Shown: one piece after another, positions 38,640-62,743 of the stretch
Position numbering within the stretch: the first letter of the stretch is position 1
Layout: each line of letters starts with the position of its first letter
From: a virus
Virus record (IMG/VR): IMGVR_UViG_3300044633_001393
Span: 1-64,000 of that record
Direction: 5' to 3' (one strand)
Length of the DNA stretch: 64,000 nucleotides
Position numbers and translations under genes: made by a program
The notes under the pieces: model-generated
What the model saw: the letters and a program-made list of their open reading frames with translations, nothing else
Database searches by the model: none
Told to the model about the DNA's origin: nothing

Positions 38640-40466
38640 ATGAGTATGGATGTAAAAAGTCTATTGACAGGAAATATGAATCCACAAGCCAAATTGATGG
38701 CTGAAACACGTGGACTACAATCCAAGTGGGAAAAGACAGGCCTCCTAGAAGGTTGCCAAGGTGTTGAAAAAGCACATATGTCAATCCTATTGGAAAACCA
38801 AGCAAAACAATTGCTTGACGAAGCAACCACCACCGGTACCTCTACCAGTTCAGAACAATGGGCTGGTGTAGCTCTACCATTGGTACGTCGTGTATTCGCT
38901 GAAATCGCCGCTAAGGAATTCGTCAGCGTACAACCAATGAATCTACCATCTGGTCTAATTTTCTATCTAGACTTCAAGTATGGTACAACCGCTCCTGGTA
39001 GTGATTTGCGTAACTTGAACAACGGTAGTTCCGTAACTACCCGTGCAGGTAAGCAATTGAACGACAGTTTGTTTGGTGGTACAGGTAAGAAGTTGGGTTC
39101 AACTGATGACGCAGTACGTGGTCTATACGGTCAAGGTGCTTTTGCTTATTCAGTTCGTCCAGTAAGTAGCTCTGCTATTACCCTAGCTAAGAGTGCAACT
39201 GCAACCGCAACTGGTAACACCATCCAAACCGCTTCTTGGAACGACGTTCAATTTGCTGCTGAATTAAGCGCATCTGTCGTAGCTAAGAAGTTGTTCAAGG
39301 TTATCTTGAACCACGACGACAACACCACTGGTGTTGCTGGTCAAGGATATATGTACAACGTTGACTTGAACGCAGTACGTTCATTCAACTTGATTTCAGG
39401 TTCAGTTGCACCAACTTCTCTAAGAAGCAATGGTTTGGTATTGAACACCTATTCAAAAGCAATTAACACTGGTAGTTTGAGCAATCCATTCTATCAATCC
39501 GTATATATCGTATCCGCTTCTAATAGCGCATTCGGTGGTGCAGCAAGCAACGTTAAGTTGATCTATAGTCTACAACCTACCGATAACCTACGTGGTGACT
39601 TCGAAGCTGGTAAGACCCCAGGTGAAGGTTCCGGTACCGCTGGTAACGTTCCTACACAAAGCATCGATACTGATATCAGTATCCCAGAAGTAAACTTGGT
39701 ACTAAACAGCGAACCAATCGTTGCTAAGACCCGTAAGTTGAAAGCAGTCTGGACCCCAGAATTGGCTCAAGACTTGAACGCATATCACTCCATCGACGCA
39801 GAAGCAGAACTTACTGCTCTATTGAGTGAATATGTATCTATGGAAATCGATCTTGAAATCCTAGACATGTTGAACGAAGCCGTTCAAGGCATAACAACCG
39901 AAGCTTGGTCCGCCCAAATCGGTGTTGAATTCAGCAAGGGATTGAATGCAACTACTGGTGAAGCAATCTTCACACGTAATGCAAACAGTTCACCAAACCG
40001 TACTGCTTACGTAAAGAGCACTTGGTTCCAAACTCTTGGAAACAAGATCCAAAAGGTATCTAACACAATCCAAAAATTGACCCTACGTGGTGGTGCAAAC
40101 TTCTTGGTCGTAAGTCCAGACGTTGCAACTATCCTAGAATCAATCCCAGGATATGTAGTAAACACTGATGGTGATCAAGCTAAGTTCGCAATGGGCGTAA
40201 GCCGCGTTGGTAGCTTTGCTTCTCGCTTCCAAGTTTACAAGAACCCATACATGACCGATAACGTAGTATTGGTTGGTTTCCGTGGAAACAACTTCCTAGA
40301 AACCGGTGCTGTATATGCTCCATATATCCCACTAATCCAAACTCCATTGGTCTATGATCCAGTGAACTTCACTCCACGTAGAGGCGTAATGACCCGCTAC
40401 GCTAAGAAGGTAGTGCGCCCAGAGTTCTATGGAAAAGTTATTATCGGCGATCTCGATACCGTATAA
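38640..40466 (+). CDS. Major capsid protein, gp23-like
   Basis: 608 aa (T4 gp23 is 521). Diagnostic stretches are L-P-L-V-R-R-V-F near 80-87, V-S-V-Q-P-M-N-L-P-S-G-L-I-F-Y-L-D-F and, at the end, R-R-G-V-M-T-R-Y-A-K-K. The N-terminal 61 residues end in L-L-D-E|A, matching the T4 maturation site after E65, so a propeptide is expected to be removed. Codon choice here (many CC- and TC-ending codons) is visibly more uniform than in neighbours, as expected for the most abundant protein. It is closed by a strong terminator. Confidence 0.95.
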   Translation: MSMDVKSLLTGNMNPQAKLMAETRGLQSKWEKTGLLEGCQGVEKAHMSILLENQAKQLLDEATTTGTSTSSEQWAGVALPLVRRVFAEIAAKEFVSVQPMNLPSGLIFYLDFKYGTTAPGSDLRNLNNGSSVTTRAGKQLNDSLFGGTGKKLGSTDDAVRGLYGQGAFAYSVRPVSSSAITLAKSATATATGNTIQTASWNDVQFAAELSASVVAKKLFKVILNHDDNTTGVAGQGYMYNVDLNAVRSFNLISGSVAPTSLRSNGLVLNTYSKAINTGSLSNPFYQSVYIVSASNSAFGGAASNVKLIYSLQPTDNLRGDFEAGKTPGEGSGTAGNVPTQSIDTDISIPEVNLVLNSEPIVAKTRKLKAVWTPELAQDLNAYHSIDAEAELTALLSEYVSMEIDLEILDMLNEAVQGITTEAWSAQIGVEFSKGLNATTGEAIFTRNANSSPNRTAYVKSTWFQTLGNKIQKVSNTIQKLTLRGGANFLVVSPDVATILESIPGYVVNTDGDQAKFAMGVSRVGSFASRFQVYKNPYMTDNVVLVGFRGNNFLETGAVYAPYIPLIQTPLVYDPVNFTPRRGVMTRYAKKVVRPEFYGKVIIGDLDTV

Positions 40467-40576: not shown

Positions 40577-41320
40577 ATGAAAAGTGGTATATACAAAATT
40601 ACAAATGTTAAGAATGGCAAGTTTTATATTGGTTCTGCTAAAGATATTGATCGTCGTTGGTGGGAACATAAAAATGATTTAAAAAAGAATAAACATAAGA
40701 ATCCTAAATTACAACACGCTTGGGATTTTTACGGGGAAAACAGTTTTGAATTTATTATATTAGAAAATGTAATAGAATGTGAATTGTTTAAACGAGAACA
40801 ATTTTATTTAGATATGTTTAAACCCTATATGCGTGATATAGGTTATAATATTACCCCAACCGCAAGTGGAGGCGATAATTTTACACATAATCCTGATAAA
40901 GAAGAAACTCGTCAGTTACTATCTGATATTAATCTAGGAGCTAAAAATCCTATGCACGGTAAAAAGCATAGTGATGAGGCTAAAGAAAGGCAACGTGATC
41001 GTGCTGTAGGACGTTATACTTTGGAGTGGTTTGTTGACAAGTATGGTATTGACAGTGGTACACTTAAGTACAAGGAGAGAAATGACAAATTGGCTAATCG
41101 TAATATTAATTACAGTTATGATAATGGATTAAAAGGCAAAAAGCGTGGTGCTATGAGTGATGAAATGAAACGTAAGATTAGTGAACAAAAGAGAAATTTT
41201 GCGCTTAGAAAGAATGAATTTGTTGATGATTTAAAGAGTGGTAGTTTTACTAACAATGCATTAAGTGAGAAGTATGGAGTATCATTAACCACGATCAAAT
41301 TACATAAAAGAAAATATTAG
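40577..41320 (+). CDS. GIY-YIG homing endonuclease with NUMOD3 motifs
   Basis: 247 aa. The GIY-YIG nuclease core is at residues 1-~95: G-I-Y-K-I-T, then K-F-Y-I-G-S-A, R-R-W-W-E-H (catalytic Arg), and N-S-F-E-F near 55. Two NUMOD3 DNA-binding motifs follow (N-P-M-H-G-K-K-H-S-D-E near 133-142 and a second K-G-K-K-R-G-A-M-S-D-E), then a small helix-turn-helix-like C-terminus. It is a free-standing mobile gene of the Seg type, inserted directly after the capsid terminator with its own promoter. It would cut alleles lacking it and spread by recombination. Confidence 0.88.
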   Translation: MKSGIYKITNVKNGKFYIGSAKDIDRRWWEHKNDLKKNKHKNPKLQHAWDFYGENSFEFIILENVIECELFKREQFYLDMFKPYMRDIGYNITPTASGGDNFTHNPDKEETRQLLSDINLGAKNPMHGKKHSDEAKERQRDRAVGRYTLEWFVDKYGIDSGTLKYKERNDKLANRNINYSYDNGLKGKKRGAMSDEMKRKISEQKRNFALRKNEFVDDLKSGSFTNNALSEKYGVSLTTIKLHKRKY

Positions 41321-41575: not shown

Positions 41576-42349
41576 TTATTCGAAAAATTCGTTGGTAGAT
41601 GTTACAACGATTTCTTGTACTTCTTCTTTGAACGAAGTATCTTTGGGGTAAGGTAGAACTTTATGTTTAAGAGATTTAGTCAACTTTTTATTTTCTATTT
41701 TGTTACTGATAAACTTGATATAACGATGTTTACCACTTTCTCGTTTGCGCCAGAATGTTCTACCAATACGTTCTTTTAGTTTATCTACGCTGTGTGTTTT
41801 CCATCTTGAATATACACTTCTGCTGTGTATCCAATCATAGTTAGGAGGACCAACTAAACTAACACTATAGTTAGGCATTATAGCGATATCTACATAGTTA
41901 TCGCCTTGATATAGAAAGCCAGTTGCTTGATAGATTGTGCCTGCGTGTCCAGCTTCACTATCCGCATAACTGAGAATACATTTGATGTGGGGATATTCAG
42001 TATTTAATAATCTAAAGCTTTCAGCTATACAATAACTTTCTATATTTTTACCATAACCATCTGCAATCCACAGTCGTGTTAATTCTAACACATTGTTATT
42101 AGTAAGTAGTGAAGAGATACTGGTACTAGCATTTCTACCCACGGCGTTTCCATATACTAATACACCTATTAATCGTTCGTTAAAACCACCAAAGAATGTA
42201 CTCTCTACATATTCTTTATAGTATACTCCATAAGCTACAGTACAAAGAGACCACTTGTGTGTATAATGATTCTTTTCAATAAGAGTTTTTGCAACATTCT
42301 TATTGATGCTTTTGATGTAAATTAATGTGGGGTCAAAATACTCCGACAT
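41576..42349 (-). CDS. Mom-like DNA hypermodification protein
   Basis: 257 aa, minus strand. The GNAT-like core matches what I know of phage Mu Mom: N27-H-Y-T, then L-I-G-V-L-V-Y-G near 60-67, L-E-L-T-R-L-W-I-A-D, K-N-I-E-S-Y near 101-106, L-S-Y-A-D at 126-130 and G-H-A-G-T-I-Y-Q-A-T-G-F. Mom converts adenine in DNA to the methylcarbamoyl form, shielding the phage from restriction enzymes. A Lys/Arg-rich tail (from ~190) could bind DNA. The gene has its own consensus promoter 6 bp upstream. Mom is strictly controlled in Mu because it is toxic when expressed early; no such control is evident here. Confidence 0.72.
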   Translation of the reverse strand: MSEYFDPTLIYIKSINKNVAKTLIEKNHYTHKWSLCTVAYGVYYKEYVESTFFGGFNERLIGVLVYGNAVGRNASTSISSLLTNNNVLELTRLWIADGYGKNIESYCIAESFRLLNTEYPHIKCILSYADSEAGHAGTIYQATGFLYQGDNYVDIAIMPNYSVSLVGPPNYDWIHSRSVYSRWKTHSVDKLKERIGRTFWRKRESGKHRYIKFISNKIENKKLTKSLKHKVLPYPKDTSFKEEVQEIVVTSTNEFFE

Positions 42350-42386: not shown

Positions 42387-42599
42387 TTATATTATATAAA
42401 AAAGACCTTTGGAATTATATACTACAGTTCTAATTTTGGTAGCATTAATCTTATTGATACCAAGTCTATCTATTACTTGAAATGGATCAGGGTGATTATT
42501 TATAGGAGCTGCCATAACTCTATCCTTTATTTTGTATACATCCAAGTCTGTATTAACAATACTTGGATGATATTGTCTTACTAAAGGCATTGTTCTCAT
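42387..42599 (-). CDS. Small protein coupled to the ankyrin-cyclase, function unknown
   Basis: 70 aa, minus strand. Its ATG overlaps the stop of the ankyrin-cyclase gene (ATGA), so the two are translationally coupled, which supports it being real. The sequence (M-R-T-M-P-L-V-R-Q-Y-H-P-S-I, with V-M-A-A-P-I-N-N-H-P-D-P-F) is soluble and shows no known motif. A small regulator or partner of the cyclase is possible from the arrangement only. Confidence 0.5.
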   Translation of the reverse strand: MRTMPLVRQYHPSIVNTDLDVYKIKDRVMAAPINNHPDPFQVIDRLGINKINATKIRTVVYNSKGLFYII

Positions 42600-44371
42600 A
42601 CTGGTTTATTTGTTGTTGGTTCTGCTTTCTTTACTCTACTAGATGGAAATGATTTGTTACCAAAATCACTACCGTGTAAACTATACAAATGCATAACTAC
42701 ACCGTGTTTTACAACCACATCCCCCAAGTCATTTACTAATACATATGGTGGTCTATCATATTTTAACATTACTGCTGAACTAACCAACAAATGATTGCTT
42801 TCACCTGCATCCATTACTCTTTGAGCATAGTTGATACCATCACCACTGATATTGAGATTGCCATTAATATCTTCCATTGGTATTACAGGTCCACAATGTA
42901 CACCCATTCTCATTTGTAAATCCGGTCTATCCTTTACTGCTTTAGCTATAGTAACTGCACAATTCATTGCATCTTCCAAATAAGTAAAGAATCCCAATAC
43001 CATACCGTCACCAGTAGGTAATATAATTAACTTTTCAAGCGCATTAGCTGTTTTGTATTGCATTGTAGACTTAACCAATGCACCCAAATCTTTACAAGCC
43101 TTCTTTTGTTCATCTGTTGTTTTCTTACTATAAGCAACAATATCCATAAAGAATATATAACCTTCTTGTTCTACGTCCAATTGCAATCTACCAGATTTGA
43201 CTTCTACATCAACTTGTTCAACTTTCTTGACAACTTGTTTGACGGGTTTAACAACTTCTACCTTCTTTTCTTCTTTCTTTTCTACCACTGGAATATCTTT
43301 AAGTTTCAAGAAATCTTTCCAGTTAATTTTCTTAGCTGGTGCATCTTTTTTCTTTGGTTCTTTTGATGCTTGTTCTTCTTCGTGTTTCTTTATTGCAGCT
43401 TCTTCACGATTACGTTTTTCAACAAACAATGCAATTTGCTTTTTAACTTCATCTGTGATGTATATGTTTACATCTTTTCCACCACCACCAATATCGTGTT
43501 TCTTTTTTCTTTGAGCACCTTTGGATTGCAGATATGTTTGCATTTCTACATTACCCGTCTTAAATGCCAAATCCAACGGAGCAATTTCACCTTTGAAATC
43601 TGCACCGTTAACATTCGCACCCAAATGTACCAAAAATTCCACCATATCAACATCGTTAGCGTTAACGGCATAATGTAGTGGCATCCATCCATTCTTTTCA
43701 TCTCTGCCATTGATTTTACCATCTTTATCAAAGAACGATTGTACACCTTCAAAATCTCCTGTTTCTGCGCAGAAATGAATACTAACACCTCCTGCGGATT
43801 TAGCACCGTACTTATTCAATAACTTAACAATGTCACCTCTATTGGTATTGGATAGTACGTCAATAGGATTATTTTTACCCAAGAAATCTTTCTTGTTAAC
43901 ATCAGCTCCTCTTACAATTAGATATTCAACCAAGTGTTTTTGTCCGTAATTTACTGCATAATGTAGTGCGGTCCAACCTTTGCCAGCGTCAACTTCATTG
44001 ATATCAAATCCCTTGTCTAACATTTCTTCAATAGAAACGATATCACCATTTTTTGCGGCTAAATGGAAACTACTACCGCTACTGTATTTTGCACCTCTTT
44101 GTTGTAGTATTTCTGCGATATTTTTAAAACCTTTTTGTTCAGCTACATCCAGTGCTGTATTTTTACTGGTCCAATCTTTACAGTTGGGATCTGCACCGTG
44201 ATTTAACAGTAGTTTTACGATTTCCACTTGATTTTCTTCTACAGCAACAACCAATGGTGGATTGCCTGTATCATCGTCTCTTTGATTGACATCTACTTTT
44301 TCTTTTTCGATACAGTTGTAGACGTTATCGTATAACCCACGTTTGATGTGGGTAAAAATGTTAATAGCCAT
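42596..44371 (-). CDS. Ankyrin-repeat protein with class III nucleotide cyclase domain
   Basis: 591 aa, minus strand. Residues ~1-290 hold about six ankyrin repeats (for example V-E-I-V-K-L-L-L-N-H-G-A-D and G-W-T-A-L-H-Y-A-V-N-Y-G). A Lys/Glu-rich linker follows at ~300-395. Residues ~400-565 are a class III adenylyl/guanylyl cyclase domain: metal aspartates D410 (F-F-M-D-I-V) and D455 (P-T-G-D-G), M-G-V-H-C-G-P-V near 489-496, and the transition-state pair N514/R518 (G-I-N-Y-A-Q-R). All catalytic positions are present. The usual substrate-selecting Lys before the G-D motif is Leu (451), so the product (cAMP, cGMP or a pyrimidine cyclic nucleotide) cannot be predicted. The gene follows an MscS-like membrane protein by 15 bp. 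Confidence 0.85.
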   Translation of the reverse strand: MAINIFTHIKRGLYDNVYNCIEKEKVDVNQRDDDTGNPPLVVAVEENQVEIVKLLLNHGADPNCKDWTSKNTALDVAEQKGFKNIAEILQQRGAKYSSGSSFHLAAKNGDIVSIEEMLDKGFDINEVDAGKGWTALHYAVNYGQKHLVEYLIVRGADVNKKDFLGKNNPIDVLSNTNRGDIVKLLNKYGAKSAGGVSIHFCAETGDFEGVQSFFDKDGKINGRDEKNGWMPLHYAVNANDVDMVEFLVHLGANVNGADFKGEIAPLDLAFKTGNVEMQTYLQSKGAQRKKKHDIGGGGKDVNIYITDEVKKQIALFVEKRNREEAAIKKHEEEQASKEPKKKDAPAKKINWKDFLKLKDIPVVEKKEEKKVEVVKPVKQVVKKVEQVDVEVKSGRLQLDVEQEGYIFFMDIVAYSKKTTDEQKKACKDLGALVKSTMQYKTANALEKLIILPTGDGMVLGFFTYLEDAMNCAVTIAKAVKDRPDLQMRMGVHCGPVIPMEDINGNLNISGDGINYAQRVMDAGESNHLLVSSAVMLKYDRPPYVLVNDLGDVVVKHGVVMHLYSLHGSDFGNKSFPSSRVKKAEPTTNKPV

Positions 44372-44386
44372 AGTTTAATTAGTAAA

Positions 44387-44794
44387 TTAGTCTTTTTTGA
44401 AACGGCTTAAATCCAATTGAGGTAGTGGTTTTTCTATGTTTAGACCAGCTAGTCTTTCATTTTGGATAACTAATTTACTTCCGCCTACAACCTTACCATC
44501 TACTACGTCATATATGAAAAATACAGTTTTTGTAAGTCCCACACGAACAATTCTGCCGGGTTTGCCATCAATATATACAACATCATCTTCTTTGTAATCG
44601 GACCCAATAAACATAAACAGTGCCGCGGCAAGTTTTTCAATGCTTGATTTAAACATTAGAATTACTAATCCCGCTACGAACATCCAGACATATTTGCCTG
44701 TCATATCTTGTGCGGTTGATTCTAGTACCTGTTGAGATATTACGTGTGCTGTATTTGTATCCATAATCGTCTTTAGTTTATTAACACATAACAT
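44387..44794 (-). CDS. Minimal MscS-like membrane protein
   Basis: 135 aa, minus strand; the start at 44764 (124 aa) is also possible. One or two membrane helices span ~34-63 (Y-V-W-M-F-V-A-G-L-V-I-L-M-F, then K-L-A-A-A-L-F-M-F-I-G). Next comes a small beta domain, D-Y-K-E-D-D-V-V-Y-I-D-G-K-P-G-R-I-V, ending L-V-I-Q-N-E-R-L. This is the layout of the pore helix and beta domain of MscS mechanosensitive channels, without the other helices or the C-terminal vestibule. It may form or gate a membrane pore. Placement just before a nucleotide cyclase suggests an effector or sensor partner. Confidence 0.6.
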   Translation of the reverse strand: MLCVNKLKTIMDTNTAHVISQQVLESTAQDMTGKYVWMFVAGLVILMFKSSIEKLAAALFMFIGSDYKEDDVVYIDGKPGRIVRVGLTKTVFFIYDVVDGKVVGGSKLVIQNERLAGLNIEKPLPQLDLSRFKKD

Positions 44795-44839
44795 TTGTTA
44801 ACAATCCAAAACAATTATATAATAAATATAAATATTAAT

Positions 44840-45805
44840 TTATTTAATCCACTTTTGTTCTTTTAGAATATCATCAATCAATTCTTTTTCGGAACTATCC
44901 ATTTCTTTATCAAATCTTTTCAATACTTCAGTCAATGGATATACTCTATCAGGAGATTCTTTTTGTTTTTCTTTTAGTTCTTGAATTACATCAACTATTT
45001 TAACAAGTGGAGACTTGAATTCATCAACTTTGTCTTTTGAAGCGAAGTTAGCCAATTCAAATGCATGTGGAGTTAATGCTTTTACCAAACTTAGTAATCC
45101 AGAACCAATCATATTAAATATACTAAATGCTGCACCAGCTGCTGGATGTACTGTTGCTAATATTCTTAATATAACAAATACCACAACAAATATGATAATT
45201 GCGGTCATTGCACTAACAAAGAACTTTTTTAAACCCCAAAATACAGCATTAAGACCAAACATACCACTCATAGCATCCAAAGTAGCCTTGCTTTGATCAG
45301 CTTCTTTTGCAATTTCTTTTGCTTTATCAGTCATTTGCCATAATTCATCGTCATACTTTTCTTTCAAAGCAGACTTTTCTTTTTGCAATTTGTTTATGAT
45401 TTCGTCACGTTGTGATAGTAATTGATCACCCTTTTTTCTTTCCTCAGCAACTTGACTGTTTAATAAATCAACGGTAGCTTTTATACGTTTAATTTCATCT
45501 ATGTGTGGTGATCCAACTATAGAAATTACACGTTCATTGAGTGATTTAGCAGTATCTACTTGTACTGACGGGTTTGTTACTTGACTTAAAGAGTGTTGAA
45601 TACCTATAGACAAAGACGATGCTTGTACACGTTTGCCTTTTTCTACTTTTTCCAACTCTACCATCGTATTATCTACTTTGGCTTCTTGTTTAGCAACAGC
45701 GTCTTGTGCAGTTGTAACTTGCTTCGCCGGTCTAACTTCAGACGAAATACAACCGGTTAGTATTAAAATTACGATGGTGTAAAACAGTTGTTTTTTAAAG
45801 TTCAT
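44840..45805 (-). CDS. Lipoprotein with coiled coil and internal membrane segment
   Basis: 321 aa, minus strand. A signal peptide ends in a clear lipobox L-T-G-C19. Residues ~35-190 are a long coiled coil, and residues ~205-225 (A-I-I-I-F-V-V-V-F-V-I-L) a membrane helix, followed by an amphipathic Gly/Ala-rich stretch and a charged C-terminus. The combination of lipid anchor and inner helix could bridge two membranes, as unimolecular spanins do, or anchor a signalling complex. A TATTTATA element precedes the start by 4 nt on its own strand. It is the first gene of the minus-strand cassette. Confidence 0.6.
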   Translation of the reverse strand: MNFKKQLFYTIVILILTGCISSEVRPAKQVTTAQDAVAKQEAKVDNTMVELEKVEKGKRVQASSLSIGIQHSLSQVTNPSVQVDTAKSLNERVISIVGSPHIDEIKRIKATVDLLNSQVAEERKKGDQLLSQRDEIINKLQKEKSALKEKYDDELWQMTDKAKEIAKEADQSKATLDAMSGMFGLNAVFWGLKKFFVSAMTAIIIFVVVFVILRILATVHPAAGAAFSIFNMIGSGLLSLVKALTPHAFELANFASKDKVDEFKSPLVKIVDVIQELKEKQKESPDRVYPLTEVLKRFDKEMDSSEKELIDDILKEQKWIK

Positions 45806-48098: not shown

Positions 48099-49328
48099 AT
48101 GAGTGCTAATTTAGATCAAGATAGGGTAAGATGGCCTGGGAGTGGTAGTAGTGTTACTCAAAACACTGTGCCATTTGGTTATTACTTAAGCGAAAGTTGT
48201 AACACAGGATCTGGCGAAACTACTTTTGAAAATGATTGTAGTAGTAGTGCTATGTGGGCAGCAAAACGTTTGGGTTATCCTATTGTCGATATTGAAATGA
48301 TCGATGTTAATTTTTATGCCTGTTTTGAAGAATCTGTATTGGAATATAACCGTGTAGTTAACGAATTCAACATCGTTAATAATATGGTAAATTTACAAGG
48401 ATTACCACAAAACCAATACAAAAATTTAACAGGTCTAGGAGTAAAAAGTACAGGATTGCCTTTTATAATTCAATTGAGCAAACAATATGGTGCAGAAGCA
48501 CTTGTTGGTGGCGAATATGAAGTTAAACGCAATTATATTACTGTCAGTGGCAGTGTTAATCCAAGCAGCACACAACAAGTTTATGACTTAAATCAATTGA
48601 TTGGTAAAGATATTGAACACTTGACAGGCTCTCGTATCGAAGTTAAACGTGTATTTCACCAAAGACCGCCAGCAATTGCTCGTATTTATGATCCGTTTAG
48701 TATGACTGGTATGAGTTATAGTAACGTACTAACAGAAATGGGATTTAGCGCATACAGTCCTGCTACACAATTCTTAATGACTCCGATCTTTGAAGACTTG
48801 GAACGTGTACAAGCTATTGAGTTTAATGATATGGTTCGTAAAAGCGCATATAGTTTTGAAATTCTAGGTAATAATAAGTTGAGAATATTTCCAATTCCAA
48901 CCGACAATTTCAAAGTTTATATAGATTATATAGTTGAAAGTGAACGTGATATTACCAACTTTTATAGTGGATCTCGTTATGAATACATTAGCGATCCAAG
49001 TGATATACCATACGAATACTGTACATATTGTAAGATAAATCAACCAGGCAAACAGTGGATCAAGAAATATTTCTTGGCTTTGTGCAAAGAAACATTGGGA
49101 CGTATATTACAAAAATATAGTACAGTACCAATTCCAGGTGGCGAAGTAACTCTTGACGGTGCGGAGTTACGTTCTGAAGCCAAGGAGGAAAAAGACACAT
49201 TGCTTGATAAATTGAGAGATATGTTGGAAAAAACCTTGCGAGTCAATCAATTGGAAAATAAAGGTAAGGAAAGCGAAGAAATGAATAAGATGCTTTCCAG
49301 AGTACCACTACACATTTATATAGGATAA
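48099..49328 (+). CDS. Putative neck protein (gp13-like position)
   Basis: 409 aa. A-A-K-R-L-G-Y-P-I-V-D-I-E-M-I-D-V-N-F-Y near 53-72, followed by C-F-E-E-S-V, and a C-terminal helical region fit the large neck/head-completion proteins of marine T4-like phages. T4 gp13 is 309 aa. The order with the following two genes (gp14-like, gp15-like) matches the 13-14-15 cluster of T4. It would sit at the portal to receive the tail. The assignment rests on gene order and motif memory. Confidence 0.6.
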   Translation: MSANLDQDRVRWPGSGSSVTQNTVPFGYYLSESCNTGSGETTFENDCSSSAMWAAKRLGYPIVDIEMIDVNFYACFEESVLEYNRVVNEFNIVNNMVNLQGLPQNQYKNLTGLGVKSTGLPFIIQLSKQYGAEALVGGEYEVKRNYITVSGSVNPSSTQQVYDLNQLIGKDIEHLTGSRIEVKRVFHQRPPAIARIYDPFSMTGMSYSNVLTEMGFSAYSPATQFLMTPIFEDLERVQAIEFNDMVRKSAYSFEILGNNKLRIFPIPTDNFKVYIDYIVESERDITNFYSGSRYEYISDPSDIPYEYCTYCKINQPGKQWIKKYFLALCKETLGRILQKYSTVPIPGGEVTLDGAELRSEAKEEKDTLLDKLRDMLEKTLRVNQLENKGKESEEMNKMLSRVPLHIYIG

Positions 49329-62251: not shown

Positions 62252-62743
62252 ATGGCAGAACTACTAAATCCAAGTGAAATATTCGCTACGGCATTCGAAC
62301 CAAAAGTAAAGAATCGTTTTATTCTTTATGTTGATGGTATTCCATCATTCATCATCAAAAAGGTCAATCGTCCTAAACTAACACAAGCCAAGAAGGAACT
62401 TGACCATATTAACGTAAAAACCTACTACAAGGGTAAAAGTGTATGGGATGAAATCAGTATGGAACTTTATGATCCAATTGTACCATCCGGTGCTCAAGCA
62501 GTAATGGAATGGGTACGTTTGCACCACGAATCAGTTACTGGTCGTGATGGTTACCAAGACTTCTATAAGAAGGATCTAACAATTAACGTCTTGGGTCCAG
62601 TAGGTGACAAAGTAGAAGAATGGAAGTTGGTAGGTTCATTTATCGTAAGCGCTGATTTCCAAGAAATGGATTGGAGCGATGACGGTGCTGCTCAGATGAT
62701 CAGTTTATCTGTAGCATACGATTACGCAATTCTCCAATATTAA
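62252..62743 (+). CDS. Tail tube protein, gp19-like
   Basis: 163 aa, exactly the length of T4 gp19. P-K-V-K-N-R-F-I-L-Y-V-D-G-I-P near 17-31, I-S-M-E-L-Y-D-P-I, M-E-W-V-R-L-H-H-E and the closing D-W-S-D-D-G-A-A-Q-M-I match the tube fold of contractile tails. It polymerises inside the sheath encoded at 22628. Here the tube gene lies 36 kb from the sheath gene; in T4 the two are adjacent. An A-rich/AAGG sequence precedes the start, and a terminator follows. Confidence 0.9.
   Translation: MAELLNPSEIFATAFEPKVKNRFILYVDGIPSFIIKKVNRPKLTQAKKELDHINVKTYYKGKSVWDEISMELYDPIVPSGAQAVMEWVRLHHESVTGRDGYQDFYKKDLTINVLGPVGDKVEEWKLVGSFIVSADFQEMDWSDDGAAQMISLSVAYDYAILQY

Follow-up and report, generated by a model that had tools for sequence, protein, structure and literature searches.

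Within a 64,000-nucleotide (nt) stretch of viral DNA (positions 1 to 64,000 of the 83,124-base IMG/VR virus record IMGVR_UViG_3300044633_001393; hereafter the window), we found a compact minus-strand unit of three genes, which encode a minimal MscS-like protein, a class III nucleotide cyclase with ankyrin repeats and a 70-amino-acid (aa) open reading frame (ORF; Table 1). We propose, with a probability of roughly 0.38, that the phage carries in this unit a module for cyclic-nucleotide signalling, which works at the inner membrane of the host and has the MscS-like protein for its membrane partner. This reading rests on an intact and conserved catalytic set, the absence of the whole block from a sister phage, the recurrent pairing of the two genes in two groups of phages, the replacement of one cyclase by another and an exchange of partners between lineages. 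A functional link between the MscS-like protein and the cyclase is in itself probable, while control of a pore by the cyclase, through its product or by contact, is rather less than an even bet.

The extent of the unit was read from the sister phage L187, which aligned to window positions 45855-44814 and 42403-41570 and skipped the block between, so that a lipoprotein gene and a Mom-like DNA modification gene lie side by side and the three genes are gone together. Because L187 keeps the lipoprotein without the block, we consider the unit to be three genes and the lipoprotein to be separable. The gaps between the minus-strand genes are short (45 nt from lipoprotein to mscs, 15 nt from mscs to cyclase, and a 4-nt overlap of cyclase and 70-aa ORF), as expected of a single transcript; a promoter and terminator scan of the region was at chance level and uninformative (22 promoters where 24.3 were expected, 2 terminators where 1.7 were). 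The 70-aa ORF comes after the cyclase in most window-type phages. An earlier reading of the same DNA (the initial annotation) had joined four minus-strand ORFs, the lipoprotein included, into one unit. All four are present where it placed them and the small ORF overlaps the cyclase stop, in line with the coupling that it described, and mscs, cyclase and 70-aa ORF (42387-44794) stand as a compact unit; the lipoprotein falls outside.

The ankyrin-cyclase retains a class III catalytic centre

Judging from its sequence, the class III catalytic domain of the ankyrin-cyclase is intact and under strong purifying selection. Pfam matched both the repeats (Ank_2, 2.6e-38) and the catalytic part, the latter above its threshold (Guanylate_cyc PF00211, 5.7e-5, 23.2 bits with a cut-off of 21.9). 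The cyclase domain was predicted with confidence (predicted local distance difference test, pLDDT, 86.1), and the structural matches listed for the model were class III cyclases (Foldseek E 2.2e-10; VIA Z 17.9, root-mean-square deviation, rmsd, 3.0, 156 residues aligned). The class III identity proposed in the initial annotation is thus upheld; a profile built from eight phage relatives also ranked solved class III cyclases first (3mr7, 3.7e-8). The four catalytic residues named there lie where they were said to be, and none is substituted in any readable row of an alignment of 75 rows (the window protein and 74 distinct ORF proteins, six of them bacterial, with incomplete ORFs kept): D410 was found in 74/74 readable rows, D455 in 74/74, N514 in 75/75 and R518 in 75/75. 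We take D410 and D455 to be the two metal aspartates, and N514 and R518 to be the transition-state Asn and Arg.

The canonical base-recognition pair is Lys/Asp for ATP and Glu/Cys for GTP, and the window cyclase has neither. At the positions that presumably correspond to the base-reading residues of ordinary adenylyl cyclases it carries L451 (Leu in 71 rows, that is every readable phage row, and Ile in 3 bacterial rows; the aligned residue of 3mr7 is Lys) and N507 (Asn in 75/75 rows; Asp in 3mr7). Because the usual ATP and GTP recognition residues are replaced by a conserved Leu and a conserved Asn, we leave the base of the substrate open. To estimate selection, five cyclase domains were compared with that of the window; two comparisons were saturated at silent sites, and the three computable pairs gave ratios of non-synonymous to synonymous substitution rates (dN/dS) of 0.045, 0.053 and 0.058, the last from a pair near silent-site saturation. 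We consider it likely that the protein is an active nucleotide cyclase.

A minimal MscS-like protein precedes the cyclase

The MscS-like protein probably starts at ATG 44764, where its relatives start, which would make it 125 aa long. Its match to the MscS beta-domain (PF00924) reached 16.0 bits, below the 20.2 cut-off, and a 106-aa homologue from phage L302 was also below it (16.6 bits); the homologue in related phage L329 passed (29.6 bits, 7.8e-7), and homologues from related phages were found by the same profile, A1, at E values of 7e-18 to 1e-27. Among 177,635 PDB sequences searched with the MscS profile at E up to 10, the sole match was E. coli MscS (E 3.7), and MscS channels were also the best structural matches of the predicted model (Foldseek 7.7e-4; VIA Z 8.6, rmsd 7.4, 108 residues aligned). 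Of MscS, the protein keeps no more than the beta-domain and a putative pore-helix region: it stops shortly after the beta-domain, the C-terminal alpha/beta cytoplasmic domain is not present, and a Pfam scan of the window protein found no cyclic nucleoside monophosphate (cNMP)-binding domain (PF00027). On this cumulative evidence, the beta-domain among it, the protein looks MscS-type. The minimal MscS-like protein of the initial annotation is accordingly borne out by the L329 homologue and by the lead of MscS structures in the fold comparison, and structure prediction, which that annotation had named as a check, left an MscS-type fold standing despite a weak model. That the protein forms a true pore has, in our view, even odds.

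Different cyclases adjoin the same MscS gene in window-type phages

A survey of MscS-like genes returned 113 loci with 52 distinct proteins (three loci, L227, L240 and L241, repeat the contigs of L081, L079 and L080). Window-type proteins of at least 82% identity, here called clade I, account for 23 distinct proteins at 69 loci. When membrane cyclases and ankyrin-cyclases, including those of which only the start was present, were counted together, one lay within the next one to three genes for 22 of the 23 distinct MscS proteins (66/69 loci), and at the three remaining loci the contig stops 0-42 nt past mscs. The conserved adjacency for which the initial annotation had asked phage genomes to be surveyed therefore recurs, and the lack of linkage that it had named as a refutation was not seen. 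Among 24 records of at least 36 kilobases (kb) tested for both genes, all nine with MscS carried a cyclase (9/9) and the 15 without MscS did not (0/15); this set was chosen for mscs or lipoprotein and holds several near-duplicates, hence no probability is given.

The type of cyclase varies. In L029 and L058 the slot of the ankyrin-cyclase is taken by a 213-215-aa barrel-like protein (by eye), a membrane cyclase and an HD-like protein. The replacement is a class III cyclase of 482 aa (L029) or 479 aa (L058), membrane-bound by eye, whose L027 version matched PF00211 at 2.8e-27. The HD-like protein (258-259 aa) gave a Pfam HD match of 0.0075, below the cut-off, for the L027 version, the one of two versions that matched, and a search for an informative solved structure of it found none. 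Both cyclase types are present in L027 and L059, and in L061 mscs and the ankyrin-cyclase are accompanied by the 70-aa ORF and the HD-like protein. The layouts of L029, L058, L027 and L059 show that different cyclases adjoin the same MscS gene.

These swaps bear on the possibility that the MscS-like protein is a membrane anchor and no pore, its beta-domain docking the ankyrin repeats and so tethering a soluble cyclase to the inner membrane. A hydrophobicity scan found no membrane segment in the ankyrin-cyclase, the partner retains one helix and the beta-domain only, and in L309 the two genes are 9 nt apart, all of which would suit an anchor. However, the cyclases of L029 and L058 need no anchor if they are membrane-bound as they appear, yet they adjoin the same MscS gene, and we regard this alternative as very unlikely.

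Partner exchange in a second phage group

The remaining MscS proteins of the survey, clade II (29 distinct proteins, 57-71% identity), lie next to a lysis locus, which comprises a holin (Phage_holin_10 PF23987, 9.4e-13) and an endolysin with lysozyme and LysM domains, and next to what by eye are ribonucleotide reductase genes. In most clade II loci, L069 (6471-8360) for example, mscs and the holin gene (PF23987) are transcribed divergently, and a small gene and then the endolysin gene come after the holin. We count the position of MscS beside holin and endolysin in these related phages as no more than indirect support for a possible use of the module in lysis, one of the roles that the initial annotation had offered. 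When 13 clade II records were searched with PF00211, two gave matches below the cut-off, and the A2 profile confirmed an ankyrin-cyclase in both: in G164 (200,819 bases; A2 E 1.3e-72) it lies 29 kb from mscs and in G165 (53,939 bases) 33 kb from it. The remaining 11 records are at most 43.9 kb long, too short to reach that distance from mscs.

A scan for ankyrin-cyclases of a second phage group yielded 41 loci, and an MscS-like gene lay in the flank (within 10 kb) of 23 of them, 9 to 8,963 nt away; the shortest distance is that of L309, where it is directly upstream of the cyclase. In one further MscS clade, for which 16 loci were chosen, a cyclase was present in four, with L341 ending inside the ankyrin start; for L345 of this clade an MscS match was listed, yet ORF picking gave no MscS ORF. 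Linkage in the second group is incomplete. The partners have nevertheless been exchanged: the G164 cyclase shares 98% identity with the L294 one and 94% with those of L300 and L302-L305, whereas the MscS proteins are only 36-41% identical, and the G164 MscS is 58-69% identical to the 14 window-type MscS proteins compared, with cyclases at 45-49%. These identities indicate that one cyclase lineage is paired with MscS proteins of two distant clades. Across 36 pairs, the MscS and cyclase identity matrices were correlated (Mantel r 0.69; 0/2,000 permutations as high), a correlation that shared phage ancestry alone could explain.

It could be argued from such data that there is no functional link, and that two pieces of cargo merely share slots and ancestry within one phage group. 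The Mantel correlation would follow from that as well, many contigs are near-identical, and the linkage is loose and incomplete outside the window-type phages. Such chance company does not account for the partner exchange in G164 and G165, for the change of cyclase type next to the same MscS gene, or for the lack of cyclases in all 15 lipoprotein-bearing records without MscS, and it is the least probable of the alternatives that we considered.

Several further arrangements were seen in this group. Two different MscS-like genes (105-110 aa and 148-157 aa) stand back to back in L302 (6924-7746), L307 (6631-7450) and L314 (4839-5659), a few genes from the ankyrin-cyclase and beside a phoH-like gene (by eye). 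In L324 (6739-8952), and in the same order in L325, the genes directly upstream of the ankyrin-cyclase encode a histidine kinase with a PAS domain (HATPase_c 4.5e-14), a response regulator (1.2e-10) and a protein of 192 aa with two transmembrane segments. Two small genes recur beside many second-group ankyrin-cyclases (L292-L331): a helix-turn-helix-like one, and one whose lipoprotein-like product has about 83-109 aa (GC.G.WVWQ.DYPKH, by eye).

Relation to Pycsar and other known systems

The layout of cyclase plus membrane protein had been likened to that of Pycsar in the initial annotation, a comparison that was not supported. The PADLOC library, which we take to include Pycsar cyclase models (PADLOC-DB 2.0, E up to 0.1), matched the window cyclase with PDC-M72A (2.5e-30) and Ankyrin only, both on the ankyrin part. 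No cNMP-binding domain (PF00027) was found in any of 14 phage records, whereas 11 of 14 control genomes matched; because the domain is absent from these records and from the MscS-like protein, the phage has no known receptor for the product of its cyclase. Passages of PMC11224242 give the pyrimidine-specific residues as F/R/Q in Pycsar clade E and F/K/F in clade D. When places were mapped from the metal aspartates, the corresponding window residues were F408, L451, T453 and V458, of which only the Phe agrees with clades D and E, the two that the comparison covers. A PycC structure was not among the VIA matches listed, which we do not count as evidence. We rejected membership of Pycsar, given that no Pycsar model matched, no cNMP-binding effector was found and the base-recognition residues differ.

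A likeness in plan remains. PycTM is a membrane protein. According to passages of PMC11224242, Pycsar cyclases are encoded with a second protein that can be PycTM, as the window cyclase is with its partner; the window unit, in contrast, is phage-encoded and its second protein is MscS-like and without a cNMP-binding domain. A defence function carried by the phage against rival phages, as superinfection exclusion or abortive infection, would follow the same logic, with the ankyrin repeats sensing, the cyclase firing and the membrane protein killing or depolarising the cell. The unit is indeed a cyclase and a membrane protein in a present-or-absent cargo slot beside a Mom-like DNA modification gene, the content of the slot differs between phages, and the ankyrin part matches the candidate defence model PDC-M72A, although this may reflect the repeats only. 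We consider defence decidedly unlikely, if less so than the anchor described above: Pycsar models and a cNMP-binding effector were missing from the searches just given, the residues are unlike those of clades D and E, and MscS steadily adjoins lysis genes (clade II) or a phoH-like gene (other relatives, by eye), which suits a role in the phage life cycle over one as a moron.

Other relatives share one or the other half of the unit. The cyclases of the bacterial G032 type share the catalytic block with the phage enzymes, namely (L/I)P(T/V)GDG and N(V/I)AGAGIN.AQRVMDCGD (profile E as low as 4.4e-56), but in those read the cyclase is N-terminal and TolB/TPR regions follow it, whereas the phage proteins have the ankyrin repeats at the N-terminus and are paired with an MscS-like protein. 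MscS-type channels, including the short Trypanosoma cruzi MscS, share the beta-domain and a putative pore-helix region; the window protein differs in having one helix in the model, no C-terminal alpha/beta domain and about 125 aa, and it differs from cyclic-nucleotide-gated MscS relatives in lacking a cNMP-binding domain. A phage-encoded MscS-like protein is described in passages of PMC9239159, where HHpred matched gp51 of the Antarctic sea-ice phage PANV1 with MscS and the membrane helix of gp51 is uncertain; the words 'cyclase' and 'ankyrin' do not occur in the main text of that source. Passages of the survey PMC13288924 report viral sequences with mechanosensitive channel genes, naming MscL, and passages of PMC7159879 describe bacterial conflict systems with cNMP cyclase domains and do not name MscS. 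A phage pair of class III cyclase and MscS-like protein was not found described in the open-licence literature of PubMed Central (PMC), in keeping with the initial annotation, which knew of no phage system of this form.

A candidate membrane signalling module

We envisage that a protein of the host or of the phage binds to the ankyrin repeats and thereby switches the cyclase, which would make a cyclic mononucleotide whose base we do not assign. The MscS-like protein would use its one helix to assemble into an oligomer, a small pore or gate in the membrane, and act as the membrane-side partner of the cyclase, via the nucleotide or by direct contact. The outcome would be an altered membrane permeability of the infected cell, for the timing of lysis or for the exclusion of other phages, and the HD-like protein, where present, may serve as an off switch. 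A more specific version, in which the ankyrin-switched cyclase with its non-canonical base pocket makes an unusual cyclic nucleotide that directly opens a minimal single-helix MscS channel, so that the virus sets host membrane permeability for lysis timing or to exclude rivals, while alternative cyclases and an HD-type hydrolase swap as parts, is unlikely.

A number of observations weigh against this mechanism. On the side of the protein, the MscS-like model (helix 11-53 and a small beta-domain) has a low confidence (pLDDT 62.7), unrelated small beta-domains score a VIA Z of 7.4, near that of MscS channels, and the cNMP-binding domain is missing as noted above. No 19-residue Kyte-Doolittle window of the protein reaches 1.6, so that its membrane helix rests on homology. 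On the side of linkage, no cyclase adjoins any of the 29 distinct MscS proteins of clade II, no MscS was found in the examined flank of 18 of the 41 second-group loci, and profile A1 found MscS in eight and none in the other eight of 16 records chosen for a second-group ankyrin-cyclase. In the set of 16 loci from the further MscS clade, three with more than 3 kb on that side are without a cyclase (eight end within 1.8 kb), and 10 whole records of that set gave no cyclase-domain match. Finally, L124, an 8.8-kb contig with otherwise different genes, carries an ankyrin-cyclase (54% identity in the domain) without MscS.

Some of these observations would fit a takeover of host signalling, in which the cyclase floods or tunes the host cyclic-nucleotide pool and, via CRP-type receptors, reprogrammes transcription, with MscS serving separately, for example in osmotic protection. 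Since a search of 14 phage records found no receptor, the host would supply it, and clade II phages carry MscS without a local cyclase. The second cyclase has a Lys at the base position in its sequence, presumably the residue of ATP users, and other signalling genes occur in or near such slots (PAS proteins with transmembrane segments; the kinase and response regulator of L324). Host takeover leaves both the re-pairing of MscS with cyclases and the exchange of partners unexplained, and the base-recognition positions of the window cyclase are unlike those of an ordinary adenylyl cyclase. We thus rank control of membrane permeability by the cyclase as first choice and takeover of host signalling, which is unlikely, as second.

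Gene neighbourhood and lipoprotein

The minus-strand block lies between the major head protein and head-tail adaptor genes, flanked by structural genes of the plus strand (Table 1). The Mom-like gene is one border of the variable slot, which may be a counter-defence or cargo region. A GIY-YIG/NUMOD3 homing endonuclease gene (window 40577-41320) lies just downstream of the capsid gene; at the corresponding position of L023 and L045-L055 no such gene was found. Searches of the window record for holin (PF23987) and lysozyme (PF00959) found neither, and there was no lysin among ten window proteins (structural and other) scanned, which leaves the lysis genes of this phage unplaced.

Table 1 Coordinates of the unit, its parts and its neighbours in the window
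Feature	Position	Strand	Remark
Major head protein	38640-40466	+	structural gene
Mom-like DNA modification gene	41576..42349	-	PF25680 1.2e-44; phrog_1384 2.6e-44
70-aa ORF	42387..42599	-	start overlaps cyclase stop by 4 nt
Block missing from sister phage L187	42404..44813	-	mscs, ankyrin-cyclase and nearly all of the 70-aa ORF
Ankyrin-repeat class III nucleotide cyclase, 591 aa	42596..44371	-	
Class III catalytic domain of cyclase (~aa 402-580)	42632..43168	-	D410, D455, N514, R518; L451, N507
Ankyrin repeats of cyclase (~aa 1-295)	43487..44371	-	Pfam Ank families
Minimal MscS-like protein, 135 aa as annotated	44387..44794	-	one long helix and MscS beta-domain
Lipoprotein with inner-membrane-type helix, 321 aa	44840..45805	-	neighbour outside the unit
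Head-tail adaptor	48099-49328	+	structural gene
Tail tube protein	62252-62743	+	structural gene

The lipoprotein has the features attributed to it in the initial annotation, namely a lipobox (LTGC, by eye) and one strong inner hydrophobic segment (residues 195-213). We rejected it as a member of the unit, since L187 keeps it without the block and many phages pair it with other neighbours. The family is widespread, next to PAS proteins with transmembrane segments, helicase-like proteins and sensor-like proteins (the last two named by eye), and in the L061 record the lipoprotein sits elsewhere on the contig (locus L183). A lipobox at the N-terminus and an inner helix could make it a large unimolecular spanin, a reading that we leave open because of the roughly 100 residues after the helix and the unrelated contexts.

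Phages with the lipoprotein also encode a PAS-domain protein of 196-207 aa that is hydrophobic near its N-terminus, as in L086 (8649-9245), L195 (9067-9690), L201 (8943-9533) and L206 (8961-9563); its gene comes after the lipoprotein in the last three and after the cyclase in L086. The domain was matched by PAS_9 in the L086 protein (1.3e-7) and assigned by eye in the others. Given these PAS proteins and the two-component genes of L324, signalling seems habitual in these phages.

Origin and host

A genome scan with the cyclase profile found a single relative, on a contig of a metagenome-assembled genome (MAG) titled Verrucomicrobiales, with a domain 85% identical; the contig may be host, prophage or mis-binned phage DNA. 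In the phylum of that MAG, 4/145 genomes carried the cyclase subfamily at 1e-8, including G001, the MAG that gave the phage-like contig. G032 had nine matches to the non-canonical cyclase subfamily (L210, L213-L216), and those read carry TolB/TPR regions. Prepilin-type genes are common in the superphylum of Verrucomicrobiota, and second-group relatives carry such genes (N_methyl 7.1e-8). A Verrucomicrobiota-like host is plausible from these sequences. The capsid is closest to those of Microcystis (49.9%) and Flavobacterium (48.5%) phages, and a collection of 50,697 phage records held no match for three MscS queries (clades I, II and III), three cyclase queries or two lipoprotein queries.

Implications

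The pair is small enough for testing on a single plasmid. Cyclic nucleotides are known bacterial weapons against phages. If our reading is true, viruses too use such messengers, through a cyclase of their own and a membrane partner kept across two phage groups. Should the MscS-like protein be a gated pore, it would be among the smallest of the channel fold and would represent a new way to control lysis or superinfection. That the two-protein unit recurs in uncultured phages suggests that these viruses maintain their own signalling system at the membrane of the host.

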